Positions 21,906 to 55,929 of a stretch of DNA of 64,000 nt are shown one piece after another. The notes beneath the pieces were generated by a model. It was not told the origin of the DNA. It made no database searches and saw only the letters and a program-made list of their open reading frames with translations. Numbering within the stretch: the stretch's first letter is position 1; every line of letters starts with the position of its first letter. Source of the DNA: Acidimicrobiia bacterium (GTDB lineage: Bacteria > Actinomycetota > Acidimicrobiia > Acidimicrobiales > Bin134); the NCBI GenBank assembly GCA_022826705.1, contig JAJDUJ010000015.1, positions 1 to 64,000 on the forward strand, written 5' to 3'. Position numbers and translations under genes: made by a program.

Positions 21906-22841
21906 ATGACCAAGCGCATGAGCGACAGCTACGGACGCGTGAGCCTCACTGTGCTGGCGCTGTTGCTGGTTTTCGGTCTGGTGGCCGCGGGGTGCGGCAA
22001 CGATGACGACGACGGAGCCACGGCTGGCCCGCCGCCCAAGACCGAGCGGGACGCGTACACCAAGTGGTATGTGCAGAAGGCCGTGGATCGATACCAGGAG
22101 ACCGGCCGGCAAGCCACCATCGACTACTACAACAACGAGGCCGGCGCCGACGACCAGTGGTACGTCTTCATCGCCGACGTCAACACGGGCATCACCTTGG
22201 CCCACGCCACCATTCCCTCGCGGGTAGGCCAAAATTCAAGCCAGCGAGTGGACATCACCGGTCACGCTTACGGTCCGCTGCTGTTTGCGGCGCCCGATTC
22301 AGGCCACTGGGTGGACTACGTGTTCTACAACCCCCAAACCGACACCGGCGGTACCAAGCACACCTGGGCCATCCGACAGGACGACCTGATCTTCGCTTCC
22401 GGCTGGTACGAGGACTCCCATCCCGTTCCTCCCCCCACCAAAGCCGAGCCCGGCTCTTACACCAGAGCCTTCGTCGAAGACGCCATTTGGTTTTATGAGT
22501 CCAACGGACGCAGCGCCCTGATCGAGCACTTGCATTCTCCCGACAGCACCGACCCCCCCAGCGTGGACGGTCAATGGTACGGGTTCGCCTTTGACCTCGA
22601 CGGCATGGTGCTGGCCCACCCCACGGTTCCCGACAATGTGGGCCAGACGCTCCACGAGATTCTCGGTGGCACCCCCGAGGGCCTGGCTGCCGCTGATGAG
22701 ATGGTGACGGCCACCGAGACCGGCAAGTGGGTTGATTACACCTATCTCAACCCCCAAAGCGGAGATTGGGAGACCAAGCACACTTGGATCGTCAAACGAG
22801 ACGACATCCACATCGCCTCCGGCTGGTACGAATCCGGCTAG
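21906..22841 (+). CDS. lipoprotein with two Cache-like sensor repeats
   Basis: 311 residues. The start at ATG 21906 follows a clear purine-rich ribosome binding site. A signal peptide ends in the lipobox LVAAGC, so the protein should be anchored outside the membrane. The mature part has two related halves (about 45-165 and 180-310). Each contains a helix with YxE-x2-GR, then DxxWYxFxxD, AHxxxPxxVGQ, a GKWVDYxxxNPQ-type strand and KHTWxxxxDDxxxASGWYE. This arrangement is that of Cache-type ligand-binding sensors, usually fused to kinases or chemoreceptors but here free-standing. The ligand is unknown. It follows nuoN but probably has its own promoter. Confidence 0.8.
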   Translation: MTKRMSDSYGRVSLTVLALLLVFGLVAAGCGNDDDDGATAGPPPKTERDAYTKWYVQKAVDRYQETGRQATIDYYNNEAGADDQWYVFIADVNTGITLAHATIPSRVGQNSSQRVDITGHAYGPLLFAAPDSGHWVDYVFYNPQTDTGGTKHTWAIRQDDLIFASGWYEDSHPVPPPTKAEPGSYTRAFVEDAIWFYESNGRSALIEHLHSPDSTDPPSVDGQWYGFAFDLDGMVLAHPTVPDNVGQTLHEILGGTPEGLAAADEMVTATETGKWVDYTYLNPQSGDWETKHTWIVKRDDIHIASGWYESG

Positions 22842-27162: not shown

Positions 27163-28506
27163 CTATTCCTCCGGTTCCAGCCGGTACACGGTGTCGTCGA
27201 AGCTCAACACGTACAACTCGCCCGCCGCGTCCTCGCCGAAGGAGACCAGCGTGACCGGATCGACGGAGAGGCCGAGTTCTATTTGGGTAGCCTGCCCTTG
27301 GTCATCGAGCGTGAGACCCCACAGGCGACCTTGGCAGAAATCGCCGAATACGTAGGTGCCCACCAGGCTGGGTATGGCCGAGCCCCGGTACACGTGGCCG
27401 CCGGTTATGGAGCAGCCCGTGTCGTGGTCGTACACGTGAATGGGGAAGTCCAAATCTTCGGGAGTTTCGACGCCGGAGAACCGGACGTGGCCTTCGAATA
27501 GCGGCCATCCCAAGTTGGCCCCTGGCTTCCAGCCGTCGGCGGCCCGCAGTACGTGGACTTCCTCCCACTCGTTTTGGCCCACATCTGCGATCCACAGATC
27601 GCCGGTGGTCCGGTCGAAGGAGAATCGCCACGGGTTGCGAGCCCCGTAGTGCCAGATCTCAGCTCGCCCCCCGCCGTCGGCAAACGGGTTGTCGGCGGGA
27701 ATGGAGTAAGCCGAGTCGCCGCTGGCCTCGGGATCGATACGGAGCATGGCGGCTAGCAGGGTGTCCAGATTCTGGCCCTGGTTGAACATGTCATCTCGGC
27801 CGCCGCCGTCGCCAAATCCGATCCACAGATAGCCGTCGGGACCGAAGGCGATATGGCCGCCATTGTGGTTGCAGGCTGGCTGGTAGGCGTCCAGCACCGT
27901 CCGGCCCTGGTCGCCCTGAACCCACTGCCCGCTCATGGGGTACTCCACGATCAAGCTGTCGCCCCTCAAGTCGGTGGAGCTCACGTAGAGCTTCGATCCG
28001 TCGGGGGAGAAGGCGATGCCCAACAGTCCTTCTTCGCACTCTGGATTGGTCTGGTCGCTGATATCCAACACCATCTCGGGTGGTTCATCCCCGTCTGCGC
28101 TTATGAGCCACACCTGGCCCTCCCGGGTGGCCACGTAGAGGTCTCCACTGGTGCCGCCGGTGCCCGGTCGGGCGACCAGCGCCATGGGGTCGGGCAATGA
28201 CGCCACTGGGGTCAACACCAAGATTGCCTCTTCAGGCTGGTTGGTCCCCGCGGCTTGTTCGTCCTCGCCTTGGTCGGGAGCCGGGTCGGTCGCGGGTGAG
28301 TCAACTGGCTGGTTTCCGGCAACGGTGGGGGCGTCCAGGGCCGAACCGGGAGCAGGGCCTGTCGGTGCTGCTGCACCAGCGGTAGCCGCTATCGTGGCTG
28401 CGATTTGTGGCTGGGCGTCGCGTCGGTCTTCGTCGCTCTCGCCGCATGCGCTAACCAGCAGGCAAATCGCGGCGACTATCGCCACCATTTGCCAGTTACG
28501 GCTCAT
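27163..28506 (-). CDS. PQQ-dependent sugar dehydrogenase-like lipoprotein (glucose/sorbosone dehydrogenase family)
   Basis: 447 residues from ATG 28506, which overlaps the tesB stop (ATGA). The signal peptide ends in the lipobox LLVSAC, followed by an Ala/Pro/Thr-rich linker (about 25-95) and a six-bladed propeller. Family motifs: EGLLGIAFSPDG, NGGHIAFGPDGYLWIGFGDGGG, RIDPEA, RNPWRFSFDR and DLWIADVGQNEWEEV. The enzyme would oxidise sugars or related compounds outside the cell, but YliI-like members of unknown substrate share all these motifs. It forms a tight run with tesB. Confidence 0.88.
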   Translation of the reverse strand: MSRNWQMVAIVAAICLLVSACGESDEDRRDAQPQIAATIAATAGAAAPTGPAPGSALDAPTVAGNQPVDSPATDPAPDQGEDEQAAGTNQPEEAILVLTPVASLPDPMALVARPGTGGTSGDLYVATREGQVWLISADGDEPPEMVLDISDQTNPECEEGLLGIAFSPDGSKLYVSSTDLRGDSLIVEYPMSGQWVQGDQGRTVLDAYQPACNHNGGHIAFGPDGYLWIGFGDGGGRDDMFNQGQNLDTLLAAMLRIDPEASGDSAYSIPADNPFADGGGRAEIWHYGARNPWRFSFDRTTGDLWIADVGQNEWEEVHVLRAADGWKPGANLGWPLFEGHVRFSGVETPEDLDFPIHVYDHDTGCSITGGHVYRGSAIPSLVGTYVFGDFCQGRLWGLTLDDQGQATQIELGLSVDPVTLVSFGEDAAGELYVLSFDDTVYRLEPEE

Positions 28507-31809: not shown

Positions 31810-32382
31810 ATGAATACTTGGAGCATCTGGAGAATCCCTGCTCTTGTTGCCTGCCTCTTCTTGATGGCCGCGGCCTGCGGGAGCGACGACAACGGGCAGG
31901 CTTACGAGGCTGACCAGGTTGGTGCTGCTGCCTCGGCCAGCATTGTCAACCCCGATGGCGATGTCGTGGGCAGCGCCGACTTTGAACAGGGACCGACAGG
32001 GGTGCTGATTACGATGTCGATGAGCGGCCTCACTCCCGGCGCGCACGGCATCCATCTGCACGAGGTTGGTGCCTGCACTCCTGACTTCAAAGCGGCTGGC
32101 GGTCACCTCACGGCTACCGACGAAGCGCAGCACGGCTTGAAGAACCCTCAGCGCACGGTGGACAACCACGACAACGGCGACCTGCCCAACCTGTACGCAG
32201 CGGCTGATGGCATTGCCCAAGCCGAGTTCTTCACCTCGCTGGTGACCATTTCCGGCGGGTCAATGCCCGCACTGCTCGATGCCGACGGCTCCACGTTGGT
32301 TATCCACGAGAACCCCGACGATCACCTCACCCAGCCCATCGGCGGTGCCGGTGGCCGCGTGGGTTGCGGCATCATCCGCTAA
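31810..32382 (+). CDS. sodC: Cu/Zn superoxide dismutase lipoprotein
   Basis: 190 residues. The signal peptide ends in the lipobox MAAAC with Cys23 lipidated, so the enzyme is anchored outside the membrane. The SOD_Cu signatures are GAHGIHLHEVGACTPDFKAAGGH (Cu His ligands, first Cys of the disulfide), then LKNPQ, GDLPNL and STLVIHENPDDHLTQPIGGAGGRVGC. The bridging-His and Zn-Asp positions appear to be filled. It removes extracytoplasmic superoxide. The open frame extends upstream into the DUF1214 gene but is not used there. Confidence 0.92.
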   Translation: MNTWSIWRIPALVACLFLMAAACGSDDNGQAYEADQVGAAASASIVNPDGDVVGSADFEQGPTGVLITMSMSGLTPGAHGIHLHEVGACTPDFKAAGGHLTATDEAQHGLKNPQRTVDNHDNGDLPNLYAAADGIAQAEFFTSLVTISGGSMPALLDADGSTLVIHENPDDHLTQPIGGAGGRVGCGIIR

Positions 32383-32852: not shown

Positions 32853-32903
32853 CACAGACTGCTGTAAGCCCTGTTGATCCCCGTAACCGTCGCAGGGTGG
32901 GGG

Positions 32904-32909
32904 TATGGT
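32904..32909 (+). promoter_or_regulatory. -10 box (TATGGT) of the R-M system 2 methyltransferase gene, leaderless type
   Basis: TATGGT is followed by 6 bases and the ATG at 32916. Together with the vsr box it makes a compact 75-bp divergent control region. Confidence 0.45.
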
Positions 32910-32915
32910 CATCCC

Positions 32916-34046
32916 ATGCACACATTCCGTGGGCTAGTTGCCGCCGAATTCTTCGCCGGGATTGGCCTGGTGAGGGCTGGTTTGGAACGGGCGGGTATCG
33001 ACGTGGTGTGGGCAAACGACATCGAGCCGGTCAAGCATGCGGTGTATGCGTCCAATTTTGACGACGCGCACTATGTCTTGGGAGACATCCGGGGTGTGGA
33101 GGGCGAGTCGGTGCCCAGCGTGGATATTGCGACGGCCAGCTTTCCTTGCGTTGACTTGTCGCTGGCGGGGTACAGACGAGGGCTGGATGGGGAGCAGTCT
33201 GGGCTGTTCTTCGAGTTCTCCCGTGTCTTGAGAGAGATGGAGGGAAGAATCCCGCCAGTGGTGATGATTGAGAATGTGTCGTCTTTCGTGTCCTCTAGGG
33301 GAGGGGAAGACCTGCGTGTGTCAATCGAAGAGCTCAACAATCTGGGATACATATGTGATGTGCTTACCGTGGACGCAAGCTGGTTCGTGCCCCAGTCCCG
33401 GCCTCGGCTCTTCATCATTGGCACGCTTGAACGACTCGGTGGGCCCGCTCTGGGGATGGCGGGTCCGCTGCGCTCTGAATCGGTGGCCTCGTTTGTTCGA
33501 GCCCATCAGGATCTGATGCTTCAAGAACTGCCGGTGCCTGTTCCAATTCAGGATAGTCGCCGTCTTGGCGACGTAGTAGAGCGGTTTGACCCCCGCGACG
33601 AGCGGTGGTGGGATGGCGAACGGCTGAGGAAGTTCCTGGACTCACTTCCTCCCATACACCAACGTCGCCTGGACTCGCTCCGACAGGACGGGATCCCACG
33701 GTGGCGCACTGCCTACCGTCGAACACGCAAAGGAGTGGCCGTGTGGGAAATCCGGTCGGACAACATCTCCGGTTGCTTGCGGACGGCACGCGGCGGCTCT
33801 TCTCGGCAGGCTGTCGTCGAGGTCTCCGATGATGAAGTTCGGGCCAGATGGATGACGCCTCGTGAGTACGGCCGGCTACAAGGGGTTACCGACCAATTCG
33901 ACTATTCGGCGGTGACCGATGCTCAAGCGCTGTTCGGGTTCGGTGATGCAGTTTGTGTGCCAGCCGTCGCCTGGCTGGCTGAGCATGTTCTAGTCCCTGC
34001 TGTGGTGGGGATAGGCGGTCAAGCTCCTACAAAGGCCGCTGTGTGA
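32916..34046 (+). CDS. DNA (cytosine-5) methyltransferase of R-M system 2
   Basis: 376 residues from ATG 32916, chosen by the leaderless promoter and because FFAGIGLVRAGLERAG (motif I) lies just downstream. Other motifs: ATASFPCVDLSLAG with the catalytic Cys (IV), VVMIENVSSFVSS (VI), VPQSRPRLFIIG (VIII), and LQGVTDQFDY...FGFGDAVCVPAVAWL (IX/X). Divergent vsr and the coupled downstream gene (GTGA overlap) complete a type II-like system. It has little similarity in its recognition region to the methyltransferase at 23.3 kb, so the two systems should have different specificities. Confidence 0.92.
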   Translation: MHTFRGLVAAEFFAGIGLVRAGLERAGIDVVWANDIEPVKHAVYASNFDDAHYVLGDIRGVEGESVPSVDIATASFPCVDLSLAGYRRGLDGEQSGLFFEFSRVLREMEGRIPPVVMIENVSSFVSSRGGEDLRVSIEELNNLGYICDVLTVDASWFVPQSRPRLFIIGTLERLGGPALGMAGPLRSESVASFVRAHQDLMLQELPVPVPIQDSRRLGDVVERFDPRDERWWDGERLRKFLDSLPPIHQRRLDSLRQDGIPRWRTAYRRTRKGVAVWEIRSDNISGCLRTARGGSSRQAVVEVSDDEVRARWMTPREYGRLQGVTDQFDYSAVTDAQALFGFGDAVCVPAVAWLAEHVLVPAVVGIGGQAPTKAAV

Positions 34047-35026
34047 ACCCAGAGAGCATTGCCGACGTGCTCGATGCTGACATCGAGCGGTGGTATGAGG
34101 CTCAGCGCAATGATGGCACTGTCAACCGCAACGTCATGGCCGTTGGGCTCATCATGTGCGAACACATGAGCACTCACTTTCCACTTGACGAGTCCAAGTG
34201 GTTCACGGGTACTCAAGTCAGTCTGCTGGGCGGCAACCGAATCAAGAAGATTCTCGCTCGCCACGGGGAAGGCCGTCCCTTCGCCAGCGAAGGGGGTCGT
34301 ACGAGTCGCGGGAGTCAAGATCTCGCTCGCTCTTTTCAAGAGGTGGTCAACGGCTCCGTCGCTGCGGGCGAGTTTGGTCAACTGGGTGAGGATGGCCAGC
34401 TCTCAGTCATCGGCCGCCTTCAATCGAGGATGGTAGGGCGCATTCGGGCTGACTTCTACGACCGTCAACGCCTGCCCATGGAAGTCGATTTCAGCAAGCA
34501 AACTCGTCATACGATCGACGCGCTGTTGGCTACCGCCCGAGACAAAGGTGGCAACGCTGTGGGGGCGGTCGGGCAGCACCTTGTCGGCGCAATGCTGGAG
34601 GTAAGACACCCTGATCTTGAGATAGAGAACCAGGGCTACACAACTGCTGACCAGCAGACAGGTCGAGCGGGCGACTTCATGGTCAATGACACCGCGATCC
34701 ATGTGACCATAAGCCCAACCGAGGCGTTGCTCGCCAAATGCCAAGCCAATATTGAGCAGGGCTTCCGGCCAATGATCTTGACGCTCGAAGACAGGATAGG
34801 AACTGCCCGATCTCTCGCCGACAACATTGGAATTGAGGATCGCGTGGCGGTTCGCGGTGTTGAGGAGTATGTGGCATGGAACATCGACGACATAGCCAGG
34901 TACTCAGAAGCTGAAACTCGCAGGGTGCTTCGGCAACTATTCGATACCTATAACGCAAGAGTGGGAGCAGCCGAACCGGATCCATCTCTGCTAGTTGAGA
35001 TTCCCGAGAATCTGACTCAGGCCTGA
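34043..35026 (+). CDS. probable restriction endonuclease of R-M system 2 (DUF4928-like)
   Basis: 327 residues from GTG 34043, overlapping the methyltransferase stop (GTGA). The size, position and the stretch QHLVGAMLEVRHPDLEIENQG...GRAGDFMVNDTAIHVTISPTEALL resemble proteins of the DUF4928 type that accompany C5 methyltransferases; this family assignment is from memory. The core reads D211-F-x7-H220-V-T222 where a PD-(D/E)XK enzyme would have D-Xn-E-X-K, so the catalytic site is atypical. The N-terminal third is helical and may bind DNA. Coupled translation with the methyltransferase strongly suggests the nuclease partner. Confidence 0.7.
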   Translation: MNPESIADVLDADIERWYEAQRNDGTVNRNVMAVGLIMCEHMSTHFPLDESKWFTGTQVSLLGGNRIKKILARHGEGRPFASEGGRTSRGSQDLARSFQEVVNGSVAAGEFGQLGEDGQLSVIGRLQSRMVGRIRADFYDRQRLPMEVDFSKQTRHTIDALLATARDKGGNAVGAVGQHLVGAMLEVRHPDLEIENQGYTTADQQTGRAGDFMVNDTAIHVTISPTEALLAKCQANIEQGFRPMILTLEDRIGTARSLADNIGIEDRVAVRGVEEYVAWNIDDIARYSEAETRRVLRQLFDTYNARVGAAEPDPSLLVEIPENLTQA

Positions 35027-38203: not shown

Positions 38204-38266
38204 AGCCCCACAAGGCTTTCGGAATTCGGTGGGTTTGGCAAATGCTCAGCTGCTCTGACTGACCGC

Positions 38267-38272
38267 TATCTT
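38267..38272 (+). promoter_or_regulatory. -10 box (TATCTT) of dtd, leaderless type
   Basis: TATCTT is followed by 6 bases (GGCCCC) and the GTG at 38279. Confidence 0.45.
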
Positions 38273-38278
38273 GGCCCC

Positions 38279-38716
38279 GTGCGAGCGCTAGTGCAGCGGG
38301 CCGCCGAGGCCCGGGTTCGGGTAGACGGCGAGGTGATCGGGGAGATCGGCCCCGGGCTGTGCTGTCTGGTGGGCGTGACCCACGATGACGATGCCGACAC
38401 AGTGAAGAAGATGGCCGGCAAGCTGTGGAACTTGCGCATCTTCACCGACGAGAACGGGCACATGAACTTGTCGGTAGCCGACACCAGCGGCGAGCTGCTA
38501 GTGGTGAGCCAGTTCACCCTCTACGGCGACATCAGCCGGGGCCGCCGTCCCTCGTTCCTCGGTGCCGCCGCCCCCGACCAAGCCGCCGCCCTGATCGAAG
38601 ACCTCGTTGTCGAACTCCGCGCCCTCGGTGCCACCGTGGCCACCGGCTCCTTCGGCGCCATGATGGCCGTCGAGTTGATCAATGACGGCCCCGTCACCCT
38701 GATGGTGGAGGTCTGA
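38279..38716 (+). CDS. dtd: D-aminoacyl-tRNA deacylase
   Basis: 145 residues from GTG 38279; upstream in-frame sequence belongs to the opposite-strand GT4 gene. Family landmarks: VRALVQRAAEARVRVDGEVI, GLCCLVGVTHDDDADTVKKMAGKLWNLRIF, the active-site SQFTLYGDISRGRRPSF and the cross-subunit GxP-like DGPVTLMVE. It removes D-amino acids (and mischarged Gly) from tRNA in the cytoplasm. Its stop abuts the convergent lnt stop with no gap (TGATCA). Confidence 0.94.
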   Translation: MRALVQRAAEARVRVDGEVIGEIGPGLCCLVGVTHDDDADTVKKMAGKLWNLRIFTDENGHMNLSVADTSGELLVVSQFTLYGDISRGRRPSFLGAAAPDQAAALIEDLVVELRALGATVATGSFGAMMAVELINDGPVTLMVEV

Positions 38717-40198
38717 TCAGCGGGATTGGCGGCGGGTAGGGGTGGGGTTCCTTGAGTGGGCCATCCAGGCGGCGGCTAGGGCAGCTAGGGCGAGGGCGAT
38801 CATGGGCCAGGGGCCGGCTCGAGTGGCGAGGGTTTGGCCGGTGCGGAGCTCGATTTCGGCTTGGATGACCTTGCGCTCGGAGACGGCGGTGCGCTGGTAG
38901 ACGTTGCCGTTGGGGTCGACGAAGGCGCTGAATCCGGTGGGGGCGGACTGCACTACCCAGCGGCCGGTTTCTAGGGCTCGCAGCCGGGAGCTGGCGATTT
39001 GCTGGGTCTGCACGATGGTGAGCCAGTAGCTGGCTCCGTTGGTGGGGTTCAACAGCACTTCGCCGCCGTTGCCGATGGCGTCTCGGGCCCGATCCTCGAA
39101 GAAGATCTCCCAGCTTATTGACACCCCGAGGCGACCCACCGGGGTGTCCACCACCGCGGGGGTGTCGCCTCGGCGCATGTCCCGGGCGGGCAGGTAGTCG
39201 GGGGCCAGCGGCTCGATCAACGACCGCAGCGGCACGTACTCCCCGAACGGCACCAGCCTCACCTTGTCGTAGCGGTCGACCAGCGTTCCGTCGGGAGAGA
39301 ACACCGCGGCGAAGTTGGCCGCCCCGGTGGCCGACACGTCCTCAACCACCCCGGCCACCACCGTGGCGTTGAGCTCTTGGGACAGCTCAGCCAGCCGGAG
39401 TCGCTCCTCGCTGTTGACGAACAACCCATGCACGTCCACCACGTCTTCGGGCCACACCACCAAGTCCACCGGTGGCTGCACCAGTTGGCTGGCTTCCAAA
39501 TGTCGTTCGAACACCACACCCGGCTCGGTGTTGGCCGCCCGCGTCCGCTGCGGTCCGCCGCCCTGCACTATGGCCACGTCGATGGTGCCGTTGGCTGAGC
39601 CCCGGGGGGCCAGCGCCGCCCAGCCCCAGAATCCCAGCACCACCACCGCCAGGGCCAGCGCCGCCTGCCACCGCCGATCGAGCGCCGCGGCCAACACCAT
39701 GGCGATGGCCACACACACGCCCACCAGCAGCAGCGGCCCGAGCACCCGCACAGTGGTGGCCCACGGAGTATCCACCTGGCTCATCGGCAGGGTGGCCAGC
39801 GGCACGCCGCCGAACGGCCATCGCCATCGGATGGCCCCGACCAGCACAAACAGGCCGGGCAGCGCCAACCATCGGCTGCGCCCCGGCGGACAAGCCGCCC
39901 CGGCCAGACCGTAGAGCGCGGAGAACACCACGCACACCGCCAGATAGCCGGGCAGGGTGAAGTCGACCATCCAGAACGTGGCCGGGAACAGCCAGCCCGC
40001 CCCGAATCCAAACCCCCGCCACGCCCGAGCCCATACCGGCTGATCGGCAAGAAGCCGTTCGAAAGCCACCAACCCGACTAAGGCCAGTGGCCACCACCCC
40101 CACGGCGGCATCGACAGCGCCACCAGCCCGCCCGCCGCCAAAGAGCCTGCCGCAGTCCACCCACTGGTGCGAGCCCACACGGCGAGTCGCGGGCTCAT
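38717..40198 (-). CDS. lnt: apolipoprotein N-acyltransferase homologue with Ser at the catalytic Cys position
   Basis: 493 residues. About seven hydrophobic segments (first ~190 residues), then a nitrilase-like domain, then a C-terminal helix. The catalytic Glu is in VVWPED and the Lys in YDKVRLVPFGEYVP. The position of the nucleophile, normally in an ICYE/ICWE motif, reads ISWEIFF: Ser362, codon AGC at 39113-39115. The family transfers an acyl chain to the N-terminal Cys of lipoproteins. With Ser in place of Cys the normal thioester mechanism would be altered or lost. Several lipoproteins are encoded nearby (21.9, 28.5 and 31.8 kb). It follows hemY by 37 bp. Confidence 0.85.
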   Translation of the reverse strand: MSPRLAVWARTSGWTAAGSLAAGGLVALSMPPWGWWPLALVGLVAFERLLADQPVWARAWRGFGFGAGWLFPATFWMVDFTLPGYLAVCVVFSALYGLAGAACPPGRSRWLALPGLFVLVGAIRWRWPFGGVPLATLPMSQVDTPWATTVRVLGPLLLVGVCVAIAMVLAAALDRRWQAALALAVVVLGFWGWAALAPRGSANGTIDVAIVQGGGPQRTRAANTEPGVVFERHLEASQLVQPPVDLVVWPEDVVDVHGLFVNSEERLRLAELSQELNATVVAGVVEDVSATGAANFAAVFSPDGTLVDRYDKVRLVPFGEYVPLRSLIEPLAPDYLPARDMRRGDTPAVVDTPVGRLGVSISWEIFFEDRARDAIGNGGEVLLNPTNGASYWLTIVQTQQIASSRLRALETGRWVVQSAPTGFSAFVDPNGNVYQRTAVSERKVIQAEIELRTGQTLATRAGPWPMIALALAALAAAWMAHSRNPTPTRRQSR

Positions 40199-40235: not shown

Positions 40236-41570
40236 TCATCTGACGATTGGGCCCTCGGTCAGGCCGGCCTGGGCCGCCTGTCGGCCTTGGTTTATGCAGG
40301 CCGGAACCCCCAGGCCCCGTGCCCACGCGCCGGTTACCTGCAACCAGGGGGCGTCTTGGGCCAGCACCTGTTTAATGTCGGCCACCAACTCCAGATGGCC
40401 GGGCCGGAACTGGGGCAGCGACCGCTCCCATCGACTGATGCGCACCGTGTGGGGCTCGGCCTCCAGGCCCATCGTCGCCGCCAAATCGGTCCGCACCACG
40501 TCCAGCAGAGCATCGTCGTCGAAGGACAACGCCCGGTCGTCGCCATAACGGCCAACCGACACTCGCATCACCACTGTGTCGGGCGAGCCCACATGGCCCC
40601 ATTTGCTCGACGTCCATGAGCAGGCGGTAATGGTCCGGCCCTCCACCGCGGGCACCAGATAGCCCGATCCCGCCATGGGGTGATCTACGTCGGCGGCGCT
40701 GAAAGCCAGCGACACCAGCACCACCGAGGCGTAGTCAATCTCGCCCAACAGATCGGCGGCAGCCGACGAAACCGGGGCAATCAGCGCGCTGGCCACATCT
40801 GCCGGGAGGGTCACGATCACTTGGTCGGCATCCAGCTCGCCCAGATCAGTCACCGGGGACGACAGCCGCAGCTGCTGGCCTAGTCGGCTGACCAACTCAT
40901 CGGTCAATCGCCCCACACCGTCGGGCAGGGAGTAAAACACCGGCGCTTCGGGGTCGGCGTTCGACGACGCGGCCAGACGGCTCAATTCCCGCACCAAGCT
41001 GGGGCCCCGAGCCGCGGCTTCGGCCAACTGAGGCACGGCAGCTCGCACGCTCAGGTCGTCAATCGATGAGGCGTTGATGCCTCCGACCAGCGGATCCACC
41101 AGCCTGTCGGCCACTTCGTCGCCCAGCCGCCGCCGCACCAAACTGCCCACCGACTCGTCGCCATCCAGCGGCGACCCGGCCAAGTCAGGTTCTTGGCGGG
41201 CCCGGTCCACCCCACCATCAGACACAATCCCCGAGGCGGCCAAGGCATCGAAATCCAGCGGTACCCCCAGCACGTTGGTCTGAGGCAGCGCCCGCAGCGC
41301 TCCTCGGGAGTACACAAACGCCGCCCGCTGGGCCGGCGAAACCAGCTCGCCCGCCAACCCCAGCTCTTGGCAAAGTTCCACTGCCCACGGCACCCGGGCC
41401 AAGAACGCATCCGCCCCCTCGTCCACCGGCTGACCGGCCAACTCGGTGGTGAGAATCCGCCCCCCCGCCCGCTCGGCGGCCTCATACACCACCACCTCAG
41501 CACCAGCTTTGGCCGCCTCGTAGCCCGCGGCCAACCCGGTGATCCCCGCCCCGACAACGGCGATTCTCAC
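40236..41570 (-). CDS. hemY: protoporphyrinogen/coproporphyrinogen oxidase
   Basis: 444 residues from GTG 41570, which overlaps the hemE stop (GTGA). The N-terminal FAD-binding motif is [27 protein letters not shown], followed by AGGRILT and VDEGADAFL. The C-terminal FAD contact [21 protein letters not shown] closes the fold. It is a monoamine-oxidase-like flavoprotein oxidising porphyrinogen in haem synthesis; in actinobacteria this enzyme commonly acts on coproporphyrinogen III. It is coupled with hemE, with lnt downstream. Confidence 0.92.
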
Positions 41571-42619
41571 GGAGCGGCCTTGTATCCGTGTACCAGCTCC
41601 ACCACCCGTTCCAGCGTCTCGGGATCGGTTTCGGGCAGCACACCGTGGCCCAGGTTGAACACGTGACCCGGCTGTCCGGCGTTGCGATCCAGCACGTCGG
41701 TGGCCCGGTCGGCCACCACCGGCCACGGGGCCAGCACCGCGGCGGGATCCAAGTTGCCCTGCACGGCCACATCGGGGCCGAGCCGCTCTCGAGCGTCGTC
41801 CAGATGCACTCGCCAGTCCACCCCCACCACGTCGGCCCCGGCCTTGGCCAACAGTTCCAGCAGCTCGCCGGTGCCCACTCCGAAGTGGATGCCCGGCGCC
41901 CCATCGCCCCGGTTGCCCAGTTCGGCGAATATCCGTTGGCTGGCCGGTAGCACGAACTGCCTGTACTCATCGGGGGCCAGCGCTCCCGCCCACGAATCAA
42001 AAAGCTGGAAGGCGGAAGCCCCGGCATCGAGCTGCGAGCCGATAGAAGCGACGGCAAGGTCGGCCAGACGATCCAACAGGGCGGTCCACAGGTCGGGTTC
42101 GCTATGCATAAACCGTTTGGTGAGGGCATGGGTGCGAGACGGCCCTCCCTCCACCAAATACGAGGCCATGGTGAACGGCGCCCCGGCGAAAGCGATCAAC
42201 GGCACATCCAGCTCTGCCACCAGGTTGCCGACAGTCTCCAGCACGTACGGGGTGTCGGCGTCGGGATCAAGCGGGCGGAGCCGATCGAGGTCTCGGGCCT
42301 CGCGGAACGGGCGCTCCACCACCGGGCCCACACCAGGCACGATGTCCACCCCGAATCCGATGGCGTGGGTGGGCACCACGATGTCGGAGTACAAGATGGC
42401 CGCGTCCACCCCGTAGCGGCGCACCGGCTGAAGGGTGATCTCGGTGGCTACGTCCGGGCGGGCGATGGTGTCCAGCATCGACCCTTCCCCCCGCATGGCC
42501 CGGTACTCGGGAAGCGACCGCCCAGCCTGGCGCATGAACCACACTGGCACCCGCTCCACCGGCAGCCCGCGACACGCCCGCAAAAAGGCGTCATTGGCGA
42601 TGGAGGAACCGGCGGCCAC
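41567..42619 (-). CDS. hemE: uroporphyrinogen decarboxylase
   Basis: 350 residues from GTG 42619; a TTG two codons further upstream is less likely because TACGGT-N6-GTG gives a leaderless promoter. Signatures: [64 protein letters not shown] and [15 protein letters not shown]. It converts uroporphyrinogen III to coproporphyrinogen III in the cytoplasm. It is the first gene of the hemE-hemY-lnt run. Confidence 0.96.
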
Positions 42620-42625
42620 GCCCAA

Positions 42626-42668: not shown

Positions 42669-43408
42669 CTAAGCGGGGCCGAACTTCATCGGCGGGTCAA
42701 ACGGCTTAGGTCGACGAGCACTGGGGGATTGAACCCTCATCTGGTACAGATGCCTTCGCAGAGCGGGCGTTCTGGCCTTCAGATAGGCGAGCGTGTCAGA
42801 GGACTGGTAGTCGAACACCCGATCAGGGTCCAGTTCTCCTGGGCTGTCGAGGAGGTTGATGATTCTCTCCAAGTCCTTCGACGCCGACGTGGTCCCATAG
42901 CGGCGCATATGGAAAAGGAAGCCGTCTTCGAGGGAATACGGTCCCACTTCGTCTATGGATTTGAGGCCGATGTAGTCACGCAGTTTGGCCCGGTACATGA
43001 TCACGTCCAACTTGGTGGCCAGCAGATCCGGCAGTGAAGCCACCCTCATGCCGTCGATTTCAAGAGGTTCCTGCAAGGTGTTCTCCACTCCGGGGTTGGA
43101 TCCTCTGGGGGGCGGGCAGAACACCTGGACGGCTACGCCTAAGACTCTGGCATGGAGGATCCCTGAACCAGAGTCGATGACTTCGACATTGCCGATTTCC
43201 CTCGTGAGCGATCTGGCAAGGTGGAGCCCCGAGAACGACTCGGTTGCCAGGTAATCCAAGTCGAAGGATGTTCTATGCCTCAAATGAATGGCGAGCGCTG
43301 TTCCCCCACCAGGAATCCGTCGACTTTTTCGACCGCTCGTCCCAGGATGGGCCACACCTCCCTTGCCGGTTCCGGGATGTAGTCGGCCCATCCGTCAATC
43401 TCAGGCAA
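42669..43408 (-). pseudogene. AbiEii-type nucleotidyltransferase toxin gene interrupted by a frameshift
   Basis: The main frame (from about 43307 down to 42669) starts with GGTALAIHLRHRTSFDLDYL, the nucleotidyltransferase signature of AbiEii/MenT-like toxins, and continues with VASLPDLLATKLDVIMYRAKLRDYIGL. Its missing N-terminus is found in another frame immediately upstream: EPAREVWPILGRAVEKVDGFLVG, starting near TTG 43408, which overlaps the antitoxin candidate's stop. One extra G in the G5 run at 43303-43307 would join them as DGFLVGGTALAIHL, exactly the expected junction. The break may be a true mutation, slippage at the G-run, or a sequencing error. A repaired product would be about 247 residues. 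The family adds nucleotides to tRNA or proteins to stop growth. Confidence 0.75.
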
Positions 43409-44393
43409 TGGACCTCTCCAAGATCGCCGCGTCGATTGCAGAGGCGAGCGGGTCAATGTCGTATCCGCGCATCCCGCGACATCGCTGAAGGGACTCCACA
43501 GGCAGGCATCGAAGTGCCCACTCGCGGGCGACGCGATCAGGTCCGTCCAAAAGTGTGCAAGCCACTTGGAATGCGTCCTCAGGGAGCCTGAGGTCGCCTG
43601 CATGGGAGCCTGACCAGAACAGCCACCAGAACTCCGGCGGGACTTGCTCGGGAAGGGAGCGGTCTACAGGGTCAGGCCTCCTTGGCAAAAATGCCAGGGC
43701 GAGAATGCACTCATCATTGAGATCGAGGGACCACAGGGGAACTGTCAGCGAGCCGTATCCCCAGGCAACGCTCGCTTCCTCGCAGCGGGCGTATCCCCGA
43801 CTTGATAGGGCTTCCAGGCAACTAGTCGTGTGCTCGACGGTGAGCCCGGCAGCGCTGGCGATCTTCTCTGCCTCCGCTCCTCTGGGTCTATTTCGCAGCA
43901 CAGCCATAACGGTCCGCTGCCCGCTGGTCAGATCGGCGATGGGGTTGTCCTCGGGTTGGAGGGTGGCCGGCAGGCGGGCACGCATCGCCTCGGTCAGATC
44001 GTGGTGCTGGGTGAGCAGGACCGCTAGGCGGCCTTCTCCCGGCGGCTGCTCTGTCATCTCCAACGCAGCCGCGATACGGCGTGATGTTGGAGCGGAGATG
44101 CCGAGCTCACACGCTAGAACGGGGGGGCGAGTGTCCCAGGACCAGACCGCGGCCAGCCATTCGGCGAGCCCTATTTTCGATCTGTGCATGGCGGTGTCGG
44201 TCGTCGCGGTGAAGTCCCTCCGACAGGATCGGCACCGCCACTTCAACGGCGGATCCTGGGACCTGACACTGGGATCGGTTGCACCGCACTTGGGGCATAG
44301 GACTCCAGCAGGCCAGCGGAATCCGACGAGATACTCTTCAGCGGAGGTCTCGTCAGCCACCAGCGGGGACAGGAACCCAGCGACTTTTGACAT
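43401..44393 (-). CDS. IS1595-type zinc-ribbon / winged-helix protein, probable antitoxin of the AbiEii-like toxin
   Basis: 330 residues from ATG 44391-44393, fixed by a TAGGAT-N6-ATG promoter. Residues about 17-80 are a transposase-type zinc ribbon: AEEYLVGFRWPAGVLCPKCG, WRCRSCRRDFTATTDTAMH, then SKIGLAEWLAAVWSW, as at the start of IS1595 transposases. No DDE domain follows. Instead there is a winged-helix-like region (SGQRTVMAVLRNRPRGAEAEKIASAAGL...LEALSSRGYARCEE). The C-terminal PPEFWWLFWSGSHAGDL...ACTLLDGPDRVAREWALRCL recalls the toxin-binding tail of antitoxins that pair with AbiEii toxins. It ends 8 bp inside the toxin gene. The antitoxin role is inferred from order and domains. Confidence 0.65.
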   Translation of the reverse strand: MSKVAGFLSPLVADETSAEEYLVGFRWPAGVLCPKCGATDPSVRSQDPPLKWRCRSCRRDFTATTDTAMHRSKIGLAEWLAAVWSWDTRPPVLACELGISAPTSRRIAAALEMTEQPPGEGRLAVLLTQHHDLTEAMRARLPATLQPEDNPIADLTSGQRTVMAVLRNRPRGAEAEKIASAAGLTVEHTTSCLEALSSRGYARCEEASVAWGYGSLTVPLWSLDLNDECILALAFLPRRPDPVDRSLPEQVPPEFWWLFWSGSHAGDLRLPEDAFQVACTLLDGPDRVAREWALRCLPVESLQRCRGMRGYDIDPLASAIDAAILERSIA

Positions 44394-53375: not shown

Positions 53376-55526
53376 ATTCATCCGGATCACGCCGCGGAAC
53401 AGACATACATCGATCGGGCCCACCAAGCCCTTGAGACGGCCCGGGAGCGGGCGCTGTCGCTTAAGGGAATGGTTGAGGTGGGCGCGGGCGGCACCCATCA
53501 GGCCCGCTATGAGCGGGAGATCATTTGGGATTCGATAAGCACCCGCCTCAGCGTTCTGGACATCGGTGACGCCTCGCTGGTGTTCGGTCGCCTCGACTGG
53601 AGCGACGAGCAGGGCGGCGACCAGCTCTACGTGGGCCGGGTGGCGGTGTGGGATGACGACCAGGAACCGGTAACCATCGACTGGCGGGCCCCGGCGGCCG
53701 AGGCCTTCTACCGAGCCACCGGGAGCGAGCCCATGGGCCTGTCCCGACGCCGCCACTTCGTGACCAGAGGCCAGGAGCTGCTGGGGGTGGAAGACGAGTA
53801 CTTCGGCGAAACCAACGGCCGGGGCCGGATGCCGTTGGTGGGGGAGGCCGCCCTTCGAGCCGGGTTGGAAGCCGGCCGCACCGGCCGCCTCGCCGACGCG
53901 GCCGCCACCATCCAGATCGAGCAGGACGCCATTATCCGCTCCCCGCTGTCCGGCCTTCTCGTGGTGCAAGGCGGTCCTGGCACCGGCAAGACGGTGGCCG
54001 CTCTCCACCGGGCCGCCTATCTGCTCTATACCCACCGCTTTCCCCTCGAAGGCCAGGGAATGCTGGTGCTTGGCCCCAACCGCCTGTTTTTGACCTATAT
54101 CGAGCAGGTGCTTCCATCGCTGGGCGAGGCAGGCGTGGAGGTGTCAATGCTCGCCGACCTGCTGCCCGGCACCCGGGTCAAGGGTCTCGACAACCCTCGT
54201 ATCTCCCGCATCAAGGGCGATCTGCGCATGATCTCGGTGCTGCGCCGGGCTCGCCGGGATCGCCAGCGCCCTCTGCGGACCGACGTGACGGTGGGGTTTG
54301 GCCTGCGTCGGCTCCGGCTCACCGTGGACCAGAGCGCCGAGATCGTGCGCCAAGCCCGCAAACGGTTCCGCACCCACAATCGGGCCCGTCGCTTTGTGGA
54401 AGAACAGGTGTACCAGCACTTGGCCGACAGCGGTGCCCGCACCGATTCCCCCGCCCCTGACATGGAGGCGGTGCGCGAGCAACTCCATGGCAGCATCGAA
54501 CTGCGGGAGGCCTTGGAGTGGATGTGGCCGGTGCTCACCCCATCCCACCTGCTGCACGACCTTTTCGGTTCTCCCGCGCTGCTCCGCTCGGCGGCCGGAT
54601 CGGTGTTGACCTCGGAGGAGACAGACCTGCTCTACCGCTCCCGACAACCCCATGCCTCCGAAGTGGTGTGGACGGCCGACGACGCCCCCTTGCTGGATGA
54701 GGCATTGGCCCTGTTGGGCCCCCGGCCCGGCCACAAGCTGTCTGACTCGATTCGCACCTACGGCCACATCGTGGTGGATGAGGCCCAAGATCTGTCGCCC
54801 ATGCAGCTCCGGATGATCAGCCGCCGCTCGCTCAACGGATCTATGACCGTGGTGGGCGACATCGCCCAGGCCACCTCGGCATGGGGGCACGACTCCTGGG
54901 ACAGCGTGATCGAGCACCTCCCCGACCACGTCGACCCCCGATTTTCCGAGTTGACCATCGGGTATCGCCTACCCGAGCCCATCATGGACGTGGCCGCCAA
55001 GGTTCTCGACGCCGCCATGTCCGGCCTGGTTCCGCCTCAATCGATTCGCATTGAGGGCCGCCCTCCCCGATTCGTTCCCGTGATCGCCCATCAAACCCCA
55101 GCCTCCGGCAATGGCCAGGGCAACGGACAAGGCAGTGTCCAAGACGGCGAACCCAGCCCCAGCAGCCTGACCGCCGCCGTCGTCAGGGAGGTAAAGGCCG
55201 AGTTCAGCGCGTTGGCCAACGGGAACCTGGCGGTGATCTGCCACAACGCACTGGCCGATGCCATCTCTGAGGCACTCACCGTTGCCGACGTCGATCACGG
55301 TTTGGTGTATGAGCGAGGCCTGGAGTCCCGGGTGACCATCGTGCCGGTGGAGTTGGTGAAGGGGCTTGAGGTGGACACCGCCATCGTGGTGGAGCCGGCC
55401 GACATCTGCGAAAAGCTCCCCAAGGGGATGCGAGCTCTGTATGTGGCCATGACCCGGGCCACGCAGCGCCTCGTGGTTGTGTACGCCCGCCCGCTGCCCG
55501 AGCCCCTGCTCACCAAGGAGGCATGA
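53376..55526 (+). CDS. helD: HelD/HelR-like UvrD-family helicase, RNA polymerase recycling type
   Basis: 716 residues if translation starts at ATT 53376, which has GAGGAG 6 bases upstream. The first ATG (53469) would remove the N-terminal helix AAEQTYIDRAHQALETARER, which is typical of HelD. No ATG, GTG or TTG occurs between the in-frame stop at 53352 and 53469. Domains: N-terminal coiled arm; YVGRVAVWDDDQEPVTIDWRAPAAEAFYRAT; Walker A GGPGTGKTVAALHRAAYLLY (about 199); Walker B HIVVDEAQDLSPMQ; VELVKGLEVDTAIVVEP; LYVAMTRATQRLVVVYA. HelD proteins remove stalled RNA polymerase; HelR forms are linked to rifamycin tolerance. Confidence 0.85.
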   Translation: MHPDHAAEQTYIDRAHQALETARERALSLKGMVEVGAGGTHQARYEREIIWDSISTRLSVLDIGDASLVFGRLDWSDEQGGDQLYVGRVAVWDDDQEPVTIDWRAPAAEAFYRATGSEPMGLSRRRHFVTRGQELLGVEDEYFGETNGRGRMPLVGEAALRAGLEAGRTGRLADAAATIQIEQDAIIRSPLSGLLVVQGGPGTGKTVAALHRAAYLLYTHRFPLEGQGMLVLGPNRLFLTYIEQVLPSLGEAGVEVSMLADLLPGTRVKGLDNPRISRIKGDLRMISVLRRARRDRQRPLRTDVTVGFGLRRLRLTVDQSAEIVRQARKRFRTHNRARRFVEEQVYQHLADSGARTDSPAPDMEAVREQLHGSIELREALEWMWPVLTPSHLLHDLFGSPALLRSAAGSVLTSEETDLLYRSRQPHASEVVWTADDAPLLDEALALLGPRPGHKLSDSIRTYGHIVVDEAQDLSPMQLRMISRRSLNGSMTVVGDIAQATSAWGHDSWDSVIEHLPDHVDPRFSELTIGYRLPEPIMDVAAKVLDAAMSGLVPPQSIRIEGRPPRFVPVIAHQTPASGNGQGNGQGSVQDGEPSPSSLTAAVVREVKAEFSALANGNLAVICHNALADAISEALTVADVDHGLVYERGLESRVTIVPVELVKGLEVDTAIVVEPADICEKLPKGMRALYVAMTRATQRLVVVYARPLPEPLLTKEA

Positions 55527-55530
55527 GCCG

Positions 55531-55929
55531 ATGGCCCACGATCCCCACAGCCTCACCCACGAGATGAACGACTTCCTCCGGGATCGCCATCTGGCGTCGC
55601 TCACCATTGTGCGCCCCGACGGCACCCCCCATGTGACCCCGGTGGGGTTCACCTGGGATCCCGACACCGCCACGGCCCGCATCATCACCTGGGCCGGGGC
55701 GAAGAAGGTGCGCATGTTGGAGGCGGCCGGGGGCGGTCGAGCCGCACTGTGCCAGGTGGACGGCGGCCGGTGGGTCACCCTGGAGGGCCACGCCACCGTC
55801 ACCGCCGATCCCGACCAGTGCGCCGAGGCGGTGGCCCGCTACGGCGAGCGTTACAGCCCCGCCAAAGACCGGGGCGCCGACCGGCGGGCCATCATCATTG
55901 ATGTGGATTCAGTGCTGGGACGAGCATGA
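55531..55929 (+). CDS. PNPOx-fold F420/FMN-dependent oxidoreductase
   Basis: 132 residues from ATG 55531, with AAGGAGG 10 bases upstream. The split-barrel flavin fold shows FLRDRHLASLTIVRPDGTPHVTPVGFTWDPDT, then ARIITWAGAKKVRMLEAAGGGRAALCQVDGGRWVTLEGHATV, the usual pattern of actinobacterial PPOX-class F420-dependent proteins. The substrate is unknown. The stop overlaps the next ATG (ATGA). Confidence 0.85.
   Translation: MAHDPHSLTHEMNDFLRDRHLASLTIVRPDGTPHVTPVGFTWDPDTATARIITWAGAKKVRMLEAAGGGRAALCQVDGGRWVTLEGHATVTADPDQCAEAVARYGERYSPAKDRGADRRAIIIDVDSVLGRA

Follow-up and report, generated by a model that had tools for sequence, protein, structure and literature searches.

The window, by which we mean the whole stretch of 64,000 nucleotides analysed here, carries on its reverse strand, at 38717-40198, a 493-residue open reading frame with an ATG start, whose product is a full-length homologue of the lipoprotein N-acyltransferase Lnt and scores 220 bits against the TIGR00546 profile, above the curated cut-off of 132.9. 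Its features are given below with the E. coli Lnt (b0657, taken from NC_000913) as reference for residue alignment; Ser and Cys rows are those of the Lnt alignment described further on.

38717..40198, reverse strand: serine-type Lnt homologue, the sole Lnt found in the genome (open reading frame, TIGR00546, Pfam)
39701..40135, reverse strand: LNT_N membrane domain PF20154, residues 22-166 (Pfam E 2.2e-15, 57.6 bits, over cut-off)
38834..39577, reverse strand: nitrilase (CN_hydrolase) domain PF00795, residues 208-455 (Pfam E 3.8e-29, 102.2 bits, over cut-off)
39446..39448, reverse strand: Glu251, aligned with the general base Glu267 of E. coli (invariant in 180 Ser and 113 Cys rows)
39263..39265, reverse strand: Lys312, aligned with E. 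coli Lys335 (invariant in 180 Ser and 113 Cys rows)
39239..39241, reverse strand: Glu320, aligned with E. coli Glu343 (invariant in 180 Ser and 113 Cys rows)
39113..39115, reverse strand: AGC codon of Ser362, at the nucleophile position, E. coli Cys387 (codon read and alignments)
39107..39109, reverse strand: Glu364, aligned with E. coli Glu389 (Glu in 180/180 Ser and 107/113 Cys rows, the other six having Asp)
38999..39001, reverse strand: Gln400, at the position of E. coli His425 (alignment; His in 87/113 Cys and 2/180 Ser rows)

The forward strand reads GCT at 39113-39115, that is AGC on the coding strand, in the peptide context GVSISWEIFF. The original prediction, an Lnt homologue with serine as nucleophile and the Glu and Lys of the triad intact, is thus borne out by open reading frame, codon and alignment, Glu251 and Lys312 standing where the canonical catalytic Glu267 and Lys335 stand in E. 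coli. On sequence grounds the protein is a Ser variant inside the Lnt family and is not filed as a canonical Cys-dependent Lnt, because Ser362 was found where the thiol nucleophile of canonical Lnt and of the nitrilase superfamily was looked for. Like the canonical enzyme (E. coli b0657; TIGR00546; PDB 5N6H, 8B0P), it joins an LNT_N to a nitrilase domain, has the triad Glu and Lys and the equivalents of Glu343, Glu389 and Gly447, and is predicted to share the full-length fold (Z about 40); unlike it, the window protein has Ser for Cys387, Gln for His425, Gly for Asp413 and Trp for Tyr388, the two being 23-25% identical.

An AlphaFold model computed from the window protein and 36 related sequences (pLDDT 90.0, pTM 0.90) superposes over its full length on E. 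coli Lnt 8b0p with a Z of 40.3 and 2.7 Å over 473 residues, at 25% identity, and fits the E. coli C387S structures 8b0m and 5vrh equally well. The portion spanning approximately residues 203-470 aligns with chains of the nitrilase family at Z 25-28, as expected of the nitrilase alpha-beta-beta-alpha fold, and Ser362 is predicted to start a helix that follows a strand, in the manner of the nucleophile elbow described for Lnt (PMC5500888). In the pocket, Gln400, Gly388 and Leu134 replace E. coli His425, Asp413 and Trp148, and the Arg139 and Gly145 equivalents and the membrane domain are retained. Ser362, Trp363, Glu364, Thr386, Asn387, Gly388 and Gln400 are invariant in the 37 aligned sequences, the Trp363 position being open to Phe or Tyr more widely in the order.

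The only cysteines of the window protein, residues 89, 103 and 162, all precede the nitrilase domain; of the 180 Ser rows, 35, 39 and 25 have Cys at these respective positions. Inside the nitrilase domain, Cys occurs at two further positions in 49 of the 180 Ser rows apiece. The window protein has Gln217 and Ala222 there, and hence no cysteine can replace the nucleophile. A substitute catalytic cysteine, which the original prediction had named as one of two findings that would overturn it, is in this way ruled out by the alignment. The companion search for a second lnt also left the gene alone: in the window's genome, 95% complete, the profile search returned no other Lnt over the TIGR00546 cut-off, only three weak matches. 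These three nitrilase-family proteins are CN hydrolases that, read by eye, keep their cysteine (ICYD, ICYD and LCND), and the serine therefore concerns Lnt and not the genome at large.

Lgt and LspA of the lipoprotein pathway each occur once in the window's genome, and at E 0.001 both are matched in 33/33 relatives with a completeness of 90% or more and a contamination of 5% or less; over the family cut-offs, Lgt is found in 33/41 and LspA in 39/41 relatives. Lit was matched in 0/21 genomes, the control search matching in 1/14. The gene's neighbours and the candidate lipoprotein substrates of the window are as follows.

38222..38716, forward strand: D-aminoacyl-tRNA deacylase (dtd), convergent neighbour, start uncertain (PF02580 E 2.3e-55; 35/50 loci)
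40236..41726, reverse strand: flavin amine oxidase family protein, upstream neighbour (PF01593 E 2.9e-39; homologue in 47/50 loci)
41567..42625, reverse strand: uroporphyrinogen decarboxylase (hemE), upstream neighbour (PF01208 E 2.2e-123; homologue in 46/50 loci)
21906..22841, forward strand: putative lipoprotein, lipobox VAAGC, candidate substrate (by regular expression only)
27163..28506, reverse strand: putative lipoprotein, lipobox LVSAC, candidate substrate (by regular expression only)
31810..32382, forward strand: putative lipoprotein, lipobox MAAAC, candidate substrate (by regular expression only)

The amine oxidase family protein is, judging by the adjacent hemE, likely a protoporphyrinogen oxidase of the hemG/hemY type. 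The hemE-hemG-lnt block recurs, with a GT4 glycosyltransferase homologue in 43/50 and a methyltransferase in 40/50 loci, all neighbourhood counts being made on the 50 of 79 named loci that are at least 11 kb long. The original remark that several lipoproteins are encoded nearby holds loosely: three open reading frames of the window do have a lipobox, but they stand 6-17 kb off. A fourth lipobox match (54969-55556, reverse strand) looks spurious.

Two further features were noted around the block. At 32874-35026 on the forward strand, an open reading frame resembling, by eye, a DNA cytosine methyltransferase is followed by a DUF4928 protein (PF16280, 308 bits), possibly the two halves of a restriction-modification pair. 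At 42669-44393 on the reverse strand, beside the hem-lnt block, an AbiEii-like nucleotidyltransferase frame (a weak match, 28 bits) adjoins one that encodes a zinc ribbon of the IS1595 type; this may be a fragment of defence or mobile origin.

The serine is a property of the lineage. All 18 Lnt loci read in the window's genus have it; four further genomes of the genus gave no match over the cut-off (G001, where the gene is split across two contigs, G005, G009 and G010), G005 being 92% complete. When 197 genomes were drawn evenly from the class, 79 fell in the window's order; at E 1e-20 a single Lnt was matched in 62 of these and none in the other 17. The nucleophile was read in 60 of the 62 (26 and then 34 genomes, G196 and G224 being left out) and is Ser in 60/60, with no Cys version; to the original question whether Ser is fixed in the clade, every copy read from the order answers yes. 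For the later 34, ten genes were located by the PFGE motif and not by profile-match coordinates, and the automated reading prefers Ser or Cys where several frames fit; it missed one gene (L312), which was read by eye as PYGEY ... VVISWEVFF. The 17 genomes without a match at this threshold, which may have lost N-acylation altogether, belong mostly to one family (13 in f23, 12 of them in genus g30; three in f21 and one in f16), and together with G005 they imply that some members of the order can do without Lnt.

Beyond the order, serine and cysteine coexist. Among the 293 readable rows of the Lnt alignment (one more row is truncated), 180 have Ser and 113 have Cys at the nucleophile site, and no third residue occurs. 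The set includes duplicates, since the window also stands there as L001 and several named contigs are probably identical with G-labelled genomes. One further sequence (L307) was left out, the PFGE motif not being found in it. Other orders of the class contribute 80 rows, 46 with Ser and 34 with Cys (the top-scoring 30 plus 50 selected ones, for the most part a single row per genus, with two second copies among them), and the rest of the phylum together with plasmids 90 rows, chosen and not drawn, with 11 Ser and 79 Cys. Outside Actinomycetota, the E. coli enzyme and six plasmid-borne Pseudomonadota Lnts are all of the Cys type. The genome draws are unbiased, but the count for rows L034-L112 is biased, these having been found by six peptide patterns, one of which includes the serine itself (SWEIFFED); their records are labelled mostly Acidimicrobiia or Acidimicrobiales, some only Actinomycetota and a few oddly (Bifidobacterium, Thermoanaerobacterales), and they were counted as the order in the codon analysis.

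Some Ser-type copies turned up in unexpected places. Four of four plasmid Lnts read from Corynebacterium and Pseudonocardia are of the Ser type, with ISYEV[FL]F: those of Corynebacterium halotolerans (L293), Pseudonocardia alni (L294), Corynebacterium comes (L308) and Pseudonocardia autotrophica (L309). The first two fall inside the window's Ser clade in the tree, a placement that suggests horizontal transfer of a Ser-type Lnt, and L293 adjoins cytochrome c biogenesis and copper-handling genes. A Ser-type Lnt of the window's kind (L176, ISWEVFF) also lies in a genome assigned to another order (G066), whose congener G103 has a Cys-type Lnt (L115); contamination of a metagenome-assembled genome, or transfer, may account for it.

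Several lines of evidence bear on whether the site is under constraint. Neither Ser nor Cys rows vary at the equivalents of E. coli Glu267, Lys335, Glu343 and Pro346, and those of Gly145 and Gly447 are Gly in 180/180 Ser rows. The serine is written with AGY in 50 and with TCN in 130 of the 180 rows, and on the tree no fewer than eight switches of codon set have to be assumed for its 52 Ser rows, and no fewer than five for the order's 29 rows taken by themselves. A switch between AGY and TCN takes two base changes (PMC6872785), and the serine itself has therefore been maintained. Some of the eight could be separate origins of Ser instead, and Cys (TGY), one step from both codon sets, would be one possible bridge between them. 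Across 16 comparisons within the genus, dN/dS ranged from 0.069 to 0.170, about 0.1. Invariant residues, codon switches, low dN/dS and repeated origin all suggest that the active site of the Ser-type Lnt is being kept and is not decaying.

Repeated origin was examined in quick trees. The larger, of 119 rows, was drawn from 295 rows thinned to less than 56% mutual identity (52 Ser and 67 Cys rows, E. coli among the latter) and having 280 or more filled columns each (L049, which is truncated, was left out), and was built without columns 387-389, 413 and 425. By parsimony it demands at least six Ser/Cys changes, three of them forced by starred branches, 43 of its 116 inner branches having support below 80; a tree of 45 chosen rows needs five changes. 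On those 45 rows the AU test rejects a single Ser clade (p 1.4e-86), and from these trees we hold it as firm that the Ser rows do not all form one clade and that at least two switches took place. The rejection appears to be owed to L236, which sits in a 100* clade with Cys rows; L274 is poorly placed. Against many switches, joining the three main Ser groups and the Cys row L121 as one clade was not rejected (p 0.278), and neither was a clade of the other-order Ser rows without L121 (p 0.32), so that L121 may also stand outside its Ser group. Five to six Ser/Cys changes would be the most parsimonious account, not a forced one, and would have L121 and L125 reverting to Cys. These two Cys-type Lnts (of G095 and G076), from another order of the class, have Phe at the His425 position, as do rows of the Ser group inside which L121 is placed, and a reversal from Ser to Cys is a possible reading of both.

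How the serine should behave chemically has been studied with the E. coli mutant C387S (PDB 5VRH, 8B0M), which resembles the window protein in having Ser in an Lnt fold and which forms an oxygen-ester acyl-enzyme from phospholipid (PMC6828757, PMC5500888); the first half-reaction therefore works with Ser in this fold. The second step of the mutant was blocked and the mutant found inactive (PMC5500888, PMC6828757), though a Ser mutant of E. coli Lnt has elsewhere been called of "low activity", not dead (PMC10313180). Unlike the window protein, C387S carries one engineered substitution in a pocket adapted to Cys, and its second step is blocked or very slow. Among actinomycetes, Lnt1/Ppm2 (Rv2051c, MSMEG_3860 and the C. 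glutamicum enzyme) shares phylum and domain plan with the window protein but has a Cys nucleophile, and its N-acylation has been demonstrated in mycobacteria and C. glutamicum (PMC3850990).

A natural Ser-type Lnt is already in print for mycobacteria: BCG_2279c, a homologue with Ser at Cys387 and a second copy beside a Cys-type Lnt, failed to replace the Cys enzyme for the four lipoproteins tested (PMC3850990). BCG_2279c (Rv2262c-Rv2261c) is like the window protein in its serine and unlike it in standing next to a Cys Lnt. In our trees it would be represented by L236, a Ser-type second copy from a probable member of the Mycobacteriaceae (a placement that is itself inferred) and putatively its orthologue, a similar sequence, L237, having been dropped by thinning. 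L236 groups with Cys-type Lnts in one 100* clade and the window protein falls in another, so the failure of BCG_2279c to substitute should not be extended to the window protein, and BCG_2279c probably belongs to a different Cys-to-Ser switch. Literature searches returned no paper on a serine-type Lnt in Actinobacteria or Acidimicrobiia, on serine-nucleophile members of the nitrilase superfamily or on a Glu-Lys-Ser triad, and no biochemistry or mass spectrometry for the order.

The histidine that nearly all Ser rows lack deserves separate comment, as His425 of E. coli is thought to raise the reactivity of the nucleophile Cys (PMC5500888). Gln occupies its position in 19 Cys rows as well, including plasmid copies of Mycolicibacterium (L296) and Rhodococcus (L295); if these are, as we infer, active enzymes of the Lnt1 type, Gln is no sign of inactivity. 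Of the rows grouped with L236, the five of the Cys type have His here, and L236 and L237, the two of the Ser type, have Leu. Though striking as raw numbers, the association between Ser and loss of this His was not significant over three independent pairs on starred branches (sign test, median p 1), and in the same pair test the Asp413, Trp148, Phe416 and Trp415 columns fared no better.

On balance we favour, with modest confidence, the reading that the window protein is a working lipoprotein N-acyltransferase with the Lnt fold, in which Ser362 would be the nucleophile of a Glu251-Lys312-Ser362 triad. Glu251 would take the proton from Ser362, whose oxygen would attack the sn-1 ester of a membrane phospholipid to give an oxygen-ester acyl-enzyme, and the lyso-lipid would leave; the second step would then be aminolysis of an ester and not of a thioester, a difficulty perhaps solved by pocket changes in lineages that have Ser. 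Family, predicted fold, residues, sole copy, fixation in the order, repeated origin and purifying selection are established here, and serine as the nucleophile, with a useful rate of aminolysis in a remodelled pocket (Trp363, Thr386-Asn387-Gly388, Gln400), would go beyond them. Against a working enzyme speak the step-two block of E. coli C387S, the failure of BCG_2279c, the loss of His425 in 178/180 Ser rows and the genomes of the order that do without Lnt.

A conserved triad tells that some reaction is kept; which one is not given by conservation. Ser362 might serve an active acyltransferase or acyl hydrolase with another donor or another acceptor, its stable oxygen ester going to water, to a sugar or lipid, or to some other group on a protein instead of the lipoprotein amine. 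This reading is suggested by E. coli C387S, which makes the acyl ester and halts before the amine, and by a pocket that departs from E. coli at several positions (Gln400, Gly388, Leu134). We consider it unlikely, as Lgt and LspA accompany the protein in 33/33 relatives at least 90% complete, it is the only Lnt-type gene found in its genome, the membrane domain, Arg139 and Gly145 equivalents and full-length fold are retained, and the neighbours (hemE, hemG, dtd, GT4 glycosyltransferase, methyltransferase) offer no defensible alternative substrate.

An Lnt that has lost catalysis and is retained structurally, partnering some other enzyme in the membrane, is in our estimate rather improbable. It has precedents in the contributory role that the authors favoured for BCG_2279c (PMC3850990) and in the use of E. 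coli C387S as a negative control (PMC6828757). Drift would be expected of a dead active site, but the triad Glu and Lys and the second-shell Glu are invariant in 180/180 Ser rows, the site is only ever Ser or Cys in the 293 readable rows, and the serine outlasts codon-set switches and recurs independently. The original caution that a Ser variant may be inactive is accordingly the less likely reading for a protein with an otherwise invariant active site, under purifying selection and present as the sole copy in a genome with Lgt and LspA.

A second, unseen N-acylation system, either an LnsAB-like pair or a Cys-type Lnt in the missing part of the assembly, has in its favour that the assembly is 95% complete; it seems very improbable given that none of the 62 genomes of the order with an Lnt has more than one, that Lit was matched in 0/21 genomes and that the other three nitrilase-family matches in the window's genome are Cys-type CN hydrolases. 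That the serine is a sequencing error (the codon really being TGC), or one TGC-to-AGC change that this strain acquired recently, as hinted by the original mention of one T-to-A change, is to all intents refuted: TGC and AGC do differ by one base, but Ser in 18/18 genus loci and 60/60 order genomes, all separate genomes, takes error out, and the serine is order-wide, written in AGY and, in most rows of the order, TCN codons, and arose more than once.

The favoured reading, of a working N-acyltransferase with Ser362 as nucleophile, bears on how the family is understood. Cysteine is regarded as a defining feature both of Lnt and of the nitrilase superfamily, and the Ser mutant serves as an inactive control (PMC6828757); contrary to what the E. 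coli mutants predict, a natural Lnt probably does work with Ser. More tentatively, and with somewhat less than even confidence, we propose that the Lnt nucleophile has been swapped from Cys to Ser repeatedly in Actinomycetota, perhaps once back, and that the result would be a natural Glu-Lys-Ser enzyme of the nitrilase superfamily, the sole lipoprotein N-acyltransferase in most of an order, with a pocket adapted for ester-to-amine transfer. For annotation, Ser at the nucleophile site alone does not imply an inactive Lnt. If the proposal is true, a sole-copy Ser enzyme would reveal the second-shell residues that permit aminolysis of an oxygen ester, caution would be due over thiol-reactive Lnt inhibitors as a general strategy, and the presence of triacylated lipoproteins in a large actinobacterial group would become a testable question.
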